A program made the translations under genes and the position numbers. Under the pieces are notes generated by a model. The model had not been told where the DNA came from. It saw only the letters and a program-made list of their open reading frames with translations, and searched no databases. A DNA stretch of 34,433 nucleotides. It comes from a bacterium (GTDB lineage: Bacteria > Actinomycetota > Acidimicrobiia > Acidimicrobiales > RAAP-2). Of this stretch, positions 31,115 through 32,082 are shown one piece after another. The DNA lies in NCBI GenBank assembly GCA_027365055.1, contig DAHXOD010000005.1, positions 1 to 34,433 of the forward strand. The letters are read 5' to 3'. How positions within the stretch are numbered: the first letter of the stretch is position 1; every line of letters begins with the position of its first letter.

Positions 31115-31983
31115 CCGGCGCCGGTACCGTTGAGCCCGTGGCGTCACCTGCACCCCGCTCTTCCGGCCCGCTGGCCGGCCAATCCCCGACCGACGGATCA
31201 CCCTCGGCAGCGTCCGGCGATCCACTGGTGATCGCCGGGGATCAACTCGAGTCACGGCTCATCCTCGGTACCGGGGGCATGGCCAGCCCCGAGTCGCTGC
31301 GCGGGGCTCTTCTGGCTTCGGGGACCTCGCTTGCCACCGTCGCCGTGCGGAGGGTCGAGCCCGGCACCCGGCACTCGCTCGTGGACCTGCTCGACAGCTG
31401 CGCCATCAGGATCCTCCCCAACACGGCCGGCTGCTTTACAGCCGCCGATGCCGTGCTGACCGCCCAGTTGGCACGCGAGGCGTTCGGGACCGACTGGGTG
31501 AAACTCGAGGTGATCGCCGACGACCGGACGCTGCTTCCCGACCCGATCGAGCTGCTCGACGCGGCCGAGTCGCTGGTGGACCAGGGGTTCGTCGTGCTGG
31601 CCTACACCAACGACGATCCGGTGATCGCCCGTCGCCTCGAGGTGGTCGGTTGCGCTGCCGTGATGCCCCTCGGTGCCCCGATCGGGAGCGGGCTCGGCAT
31701 CCGCAACCCGCACAACATCGGGCTCATCGTCGAACAGGCGACGATCCCGGTCGTCCTCGATGCCGGCATCGGCACCGCCTCCGACGCGTGCCTGGCCATG
31801 GAGCTGGGCTGTGACGCCGTGTTGGTGGCCTCGGCGATCACCCGGGCGGCCGAACCCGCCCTGATGGCCCACGCCATGCGCGACGCGGTGGAGGCGGGCC
31901 GTTCCGCTCGCCGGGCAGGCCGGATTCCACGGCGGTTCGTGGCGGAGGCGTCTTCCTCGTTCCGGGGGATGGTCGAGCGGTGA
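31111..31983 (+). CDS. thiG: Thiazole synthase ThiG
   Basis: [44 protein letters not shown]...[14 protein letters not shown]; start TTG 31111 (TTGA overlap) or GTG 31138. Confidence 0.95.
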
Positions 31984-32082
31984 CGCCGCTCGCGGAGGGC
32001 AGTCGAGCGGTGACGCCGCTCGCGGAGGGCAGCCGAGCGGTGACGCCGCTCGCGGAGGGCAGCCGAGGGGTGACGCCGCTCG
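31972..32082 (+). repeat. 30-bp tandem repeat spanning the thiG stop/thiD start, 3 full copies plus a partial fourth
   Basis: GTCGAGCGGTGACGCCGCTCGCGGAGGGCA at 31972, 32002, 32032 (T-to-C at position 2 in copy 3), partial at 32062; GTG starts at 31980, 32010, 32040, 32070. Confidence 0.95.

Follow-up and report, generated by a model that had tools for sequence, protein, structure and literature searches.

A tandemly repeated 30-bp unit at the thiG/thiD stop/start overlap of a RAAP-2 genome is probably a young in-frame minisatellite

The nearest known case to the array described here is that of the MIRU repeats at mycobacterial ATGA junctions, which were reportedly described by Supply et al. 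in 1997, with senX3-regX3 as an example. A MIRU contains its own open reading frame, whose 4-nt overlap with the next gene couples the two (PMC12548453), and senX3-regX3 in H37Rv has three MIRU units (PMC4213456). The units, 40–100 bp long, are dispersed at many loci (PMC2734929). VNTRs also lie upstream of bacterial genes, as at rnc-fpg1 of M. tuberculosis, where the variation and a correlation of array length with fpg1 expression were measured (PMC2734929). We searched the literature for work on thiG-thiD coupling or on start-bearing minisatellites and found nothing direct.

The locus lies in a window of 34,433 nt, by which we mean the whole stretch of DNA analyzed (assembly GCA_027365055.1, contig DAHXOD010000005.1, positions 1-34,433, forward strand). 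The assembly is a metagenome bin, 64% complete and in 265 contigs, and the GTDB lineage of the host is Actinomycetota; Acidimicrobiia; Acidimicrobiales; RAAP-2. Four congeners (G001, G002, G003 and G004), the whole genus in our set, were used for comparison. The thi genes and the repeat copies are given in Table 1. The first start of the thiG open reading frame is a TTG and its stop codon, the TGA at 31981-31983, falls inside repeat copy 1; the C terminus of ThiG, RGMVER*, can be aligned with those of the congeners. ThiD carries the phosphomethylpyrimidine kinase domain (PF08543) and matches solved ThiD chains. A riboswitch or other known RNA element was considered and rejected, as an Rfam search of the window gave no match.

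Table 1 Genes and repeat copies at the thiG/thiD junction (window positions)
Feature	Position	Strand	Remarks
thiS	30911..31114	+	upstream gene, same thi cluster; Pfam ThiS E 1.6e-13
thiG (thiazole synthase)	31111..31983	+	Pfam ThiG E 3.8e-103
thiD (HMP-P kinase), ORF from coupled start	31980..32897	+	Pfam Phos_pyr_kin PF08543 E 8.6e-82, residues 43-300
Repeat copy 1	31974..32003	+	GTG 31980 in the working GTGA stop/start overlap; hairpin 31974-31992 perfect
Repeat copy 2	32004..32033	+	in-frame GTG 32010; GGAGGG 31994-31999 before it; perfect hairpin
Repeat copy 3	32034..32063	+	in-frame GTG 32040; GGAGGG 32024-32029 before it; perfect hairpin
Partial copy 4	32064..32082	+	in-frame GTG 32070; GGAGGG 32054-32059 before it; stem with one mismatch (GAGGGG)

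The thiG stop and the thiD start are covered by an array at 31974-32082, to which TRF assigned a period of 30, 3.6 copies, a 97% match, no indels and a score of 204. A preliminary description of this DNA had reported a 30-bp unit repeated across the GTGA overlap, and the TRF result bears this out. With head-to-tail, near-identical units within the range of about 10-100 bp, the array is a minisatellite by definition. Its copies are two substitutions apart, and it reads GGTCGAGCGGTGACGCCGCTCGCGGAGGGCAG, two further full units and the partial unit, followed by CGTTGCCATGACCATCGCCGG, where the conserved ThiD domain starts. The sequence also agrees with the earlier report of four in-frame GTG codons, all of which are in the thiD frame, and of a GGAGGG that ends 11 nt upstream of each of the last three (at 31999, 32029 and 32059), leaving a 10-nt spacer.

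Like the MIRUs, the thiG/thiD array consists of actinobacterial tandem units at the stop/start overlap of two operon genes, an arrangement compatible with translational coupling. It is nevertheless not a MIRU. The unit is 30 bp rather than about 40-100 bp long, it is found at one locus only (allowing up to three mismatches, in a genome 64% complete) and it has no open reading frame of its own. Read in the thiD frame (GTG ACG CCG CTC GCG GAG GGC AGT/C CGA GCG) the unit is free of stop codons and read in the thiG frame (TGA CGC CGC TCG CGG AGG GCA GTC GAG CGG) it is without a start codon, and instead it extends the downstream protein. With the rnc-fpg1 VNTR the array shares a place beside a start codon and a possible effect on expression, but in the thiG/thiD case the start codon itself lies inside the unit.

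The GTGA at 31980-31983 is a stop/start overlap of the kind (4 or 1 nt) that characterizes a termination-reinitiation pair. ThiG stops in copy 1, and between the copies its frame contains no start codon, so that the TGAs of copies 2-4 do not terminate any reading frame. Hence, where the preliminary description had spoken of a tandemly amplified thiG-stop/thiD-start junction, there is one working junction, that of copy 1, and the other copies give in-frame starts only. Relative to the thiG stop the four GTGs are at -4, +26, +56 and +86 nt. In reporters made from native E. coli and Haloferax pairs, coupling was nearly lost overall at about 20 nt, and in the E. coli pairs it was down 80-100% at 38 nt (PMC10666635). 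Given these distances and the published range, only the copy 1 start should be coupled.

Comparison with other genomes gave two pointers to the ThiD start. The thiG and thiD genes adjoin in 14 distinct relatives, with a 4-nt overlap in 12, and the leaders of five (L007, L022, L031, L083 and L091) offer no start other than the overlapping codon. The leader preceding the IAGSD motif ranges from 10 to 23 residues across the relatives having the 4-nt overlap and is 10 residues long in the congeners, and in the source ThiD it would measure 8 residues with the copy 4 start and 38 with that of copy 1. Hence, leader length points to copy 4, which had been put forward as the canonical ThiD start, whereas junction homology, meaning the 4-nt overlap with the thiG stop, points to copy 1; the earlier assignment agrees with the first of these and fails on the second.

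The junction also carries a 19-nt palindrome, CGAGCGGTGACGCCGCTCG. Copies 1-3 each hold it in perfect form and copy 4 departs from it by a single mismatch (C to G); shuffles gave 0.01 matches expected by chance. Folded in isolation, the stem came to -13.0 kcal/mol in each of copies 1-3, against -9.6 kcal/mol in copy 4. The hairpins reported earlier are therefore present, together with the one broken pair of copy 4, but that pair weakens the stem rather than abolishing it. The proposal that a broken copy 4 hairpin frees the start there is poorly sustained, as the GTG is largely paired in the local fold (unpaired probabilities of 0.01, 0.05 and 0.39) and lies 86 nt beyond the thiG stop, outside the measured coupling range. 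In copy 1 the hairpin ranks second among the 142 four-nt-overlap starts called in the source genome; it is unusual, though others of its kind exist. A hairpin this strong at a coupled start allows for a structural role. The idea that the junction as a whole folds in a special way was rejected because the z score of -2.4 over 146 nt is largely what repeated palindromes give.

The properties of copy 4 bear on an alternative in which ThiD is made mainly from GTG 32070 by GGAGGG-directed initiation, the array acting as a 90-bp spacer that loosens the coupling to ThiG. Besides a GGAGGG 10 nt before it and a hairpin weaker than those of the other copies, this start has a leader near in length to that of the congeners, the closest of the four to a typical ThiD. 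However, a spacing of 10 nt is long for a Shine-Dalgarno sequence, which counts against initiation at this site, and the local fold keeps the start mostly paired. Moreover, the copy 1 start is open and in frame, so that ribosomes from copy 1 would read through copy 4. A spacer as such needs no stop-free unit with a length divisible by three, yet perhaps one unit in three would be of this type by chance. On balance we consider this alternative unlikely. It remains that, judged by eye, the Shine-Dalgarno sequences (GGAGGG) of the internal starts are better than that of copy 1, so that part or most of the ThiD could start inside the array, and these starts may serve as back-ups. RNAduplex scores were not used to rank the starts as they are dominated by pairs outside the Shine-Dalgarno core. 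A ladder of ThiD isoforms made from the four in-frame starts, in which copy number and hairpin intactness set the balance of coupled and uncoupled synthesis, seems quite improbable.

The preliminary description had suggested alignment of the thiG-thiD junctions of related genomes. When this was done, all four congeners had a single plain 4-nt overlap lacking any repeat (GTGA in G003, ATGA in G001, G002 and G004), and the alignment placed a 90-bp insertion in the window; counted from copy 4, the window leader is two codons shorter than those of the congeners. The nearest congener, G003, shares 73% of ThiD. A search for the unit, at up to three mismatches, in the source genome (64% complete) and 60 relatives returned only the three full copies of this locus. 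A dispersed repeat or mobile unit was rejected, the unit being unique. As the array is absent from the congeners and its unit is unique, these alignments argue that it is a lineage-specific 90-bp insertion and not a conserved element. It would postdate the split from the known congeners, and its nearly identical copies suggest that it is young. For copy number, the comparison comprised one genome of the species and congeners without the array.

Such an insertion could also be an artefact of assembly, given that the metagenome bin is fragmented (64% complete, 265 contigs) and tandem repeats are a usual site of errors. However, the array is only 109 bp, shorter than the usual short read, two substitutions separate its copies, the flanks are continuous on both sides with the frame intact and similar perfect arrays are present in the congener G003. 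We find an artefact barely credible.

The consequences for the protein were judged from sequence and structure prediction. In the ThiD read from the coupled start, residues 1-29 are the repeat leader, with the conserved domain beginning at about residue 34. The AlphaFold2 model has pLDDT values below 50 for residues 1-29 and shows the ThiD fold well formed from residue 35 onward, and the matches to solved ThiD structures begin only at residues 32-36. As residues 1-29 are predicted to be disordered, a long leader should do no harm, and the array most likely gives ThiD a floppy and harmless front extension of 30 residues.

The source genome is rich in arrays of this sort. Counting arrays of at least three copies and a period of at least 10 bp, we found 34 across 668 kb and, in another 228 kb, 16 more; their units are unrelated. 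Densities per 100 kb, estimated from samples, were about 5-7 in the source genome, 4.3 in G003 and 0.8 in G004. In the 668-kb set the period was a multiple of three in 20 of the 21 intragenic arrays and in 7 of the 12 intergenic ones, classes that are approximate because the genes were called by a simple codon-usage script. Together with a unit of 30 bp in which no stop arises, this supports the earlier description of the thiG/thiD repeat as frame-preserving. A preference of arrays for the leaders of genes with 4-nt overlaps was not established: the first 668 kb gave 5 such arrays against an expected 0.68 and the held-out 228 kb gave 0 against 0.34, and with the window left out there were 3 against 1.0 (P 0.08).

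This abundance is the setting in which the thiG/thiD array naturally belongs, and an analogous case is zwf, which lies in the same window and has an ATGA overlap start at 12467. Right behind this start (window 12467-12665) are two in-frame arrays, 15 bp x 7.7 and 18 bp x 4.4, that encode a (TTGKG)n(TKKPGG)n leader. In G003 the zwf leader is differently expanded and lysine-rich, and in G001, G002 and G004 there is no expansion. Hence, both loci have a unit divisible by three directly behind a 4-nt overlap start, a low-complexity leader and an array absent or different in the congeners, but the zwf unit lacks a start codon. The zwf leader of another genome, G007 (L231), has PLTA repeats (APVTAPLTAPLTAPLTSP), another independent leader repeat.

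These comparisons bear on the two interpretations offered in the preliminary description, in which the repeat either tunes ThiD output relative to ThiG through its copy number or is a neutral expansion. For tuning, as a contingency (VNTR) switch, one can point to the start codon, GGAGGG and hairpin carried by each unit and to the precedent of fpg1 in M. tuberculosis, the expression of which correlated with array length (PMC2734929). However, the array is missing from all congeners, its unit is unique and no length variants were seen, with one genome of the species compared; many such arrays lie at unrelated places in the genome and fast switching of ThiD answers no known need. Extra copies would also add no coupled junctions, as no frame terminates on the extra TGAs. 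A tuning switch is thus very unlikely. A neutral minisatellite expansion is favored by the comparison, since the congeners have no array, the unit is unique and unrelated minisatellites abound in the genome.

We therefore prefer, with a probability of roughly 0.68, a young, lineage-specific and near-neutral in-frame minisatellite, the unit of which happens to hold the junction; ThiD would be started through coupling at copy 1 and perhaps inside the array as well. The 30-bp unit containing the overlap would have been amplified in tandem, presumably by slippage or unequal exchange, so that three additional units (90 bp) now separate the ThiD domain from the thiG stop. As the unit is divisible by three and stop-free in the thiD frame, thiD can still be opened from GTG 31980. 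After terminating on the thiG TGA, a ribosome would open the hairpin and reinitiate at this GTG, and the resulting ThiD would have three ten-residue repeats as a disordered leader ahead of the usual N terminus. The GTGs at 32010, 32040 and 32070 would be at most secondary, uncoupled starts, and the shorter ThiD made from them would presumably be just as active. As the leader of ThiD varies and is free of constraint, the array is probably tolerated by selection.

On this interpretation the locus is a natural case in which a stop/start overlap has been amplified as a unit with neither gene broken. It offers a clean test of whether a ribosome that has just terminated is confined to the overlapping start or can also use in-frame starts 26, 56 and 86 nt further along. 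Caution is also called for in annotation, as the start that best fits the family N terminus may mislead; with the coupled start the protein is longer by 30 residues.

Two further arrays were seen. In the source genome a 15-bp array near a gene start (L115 4164-4214) has an in-frame GTG in each unit and a possible 4-nt overlap ahead. In the window, a perfect 17-bp x 6.4 array with the palindrome CCGGCCGG begins 11 bp past the thiD stop (32909-33017), and thus thiD is flanked by two unrelated arrays.
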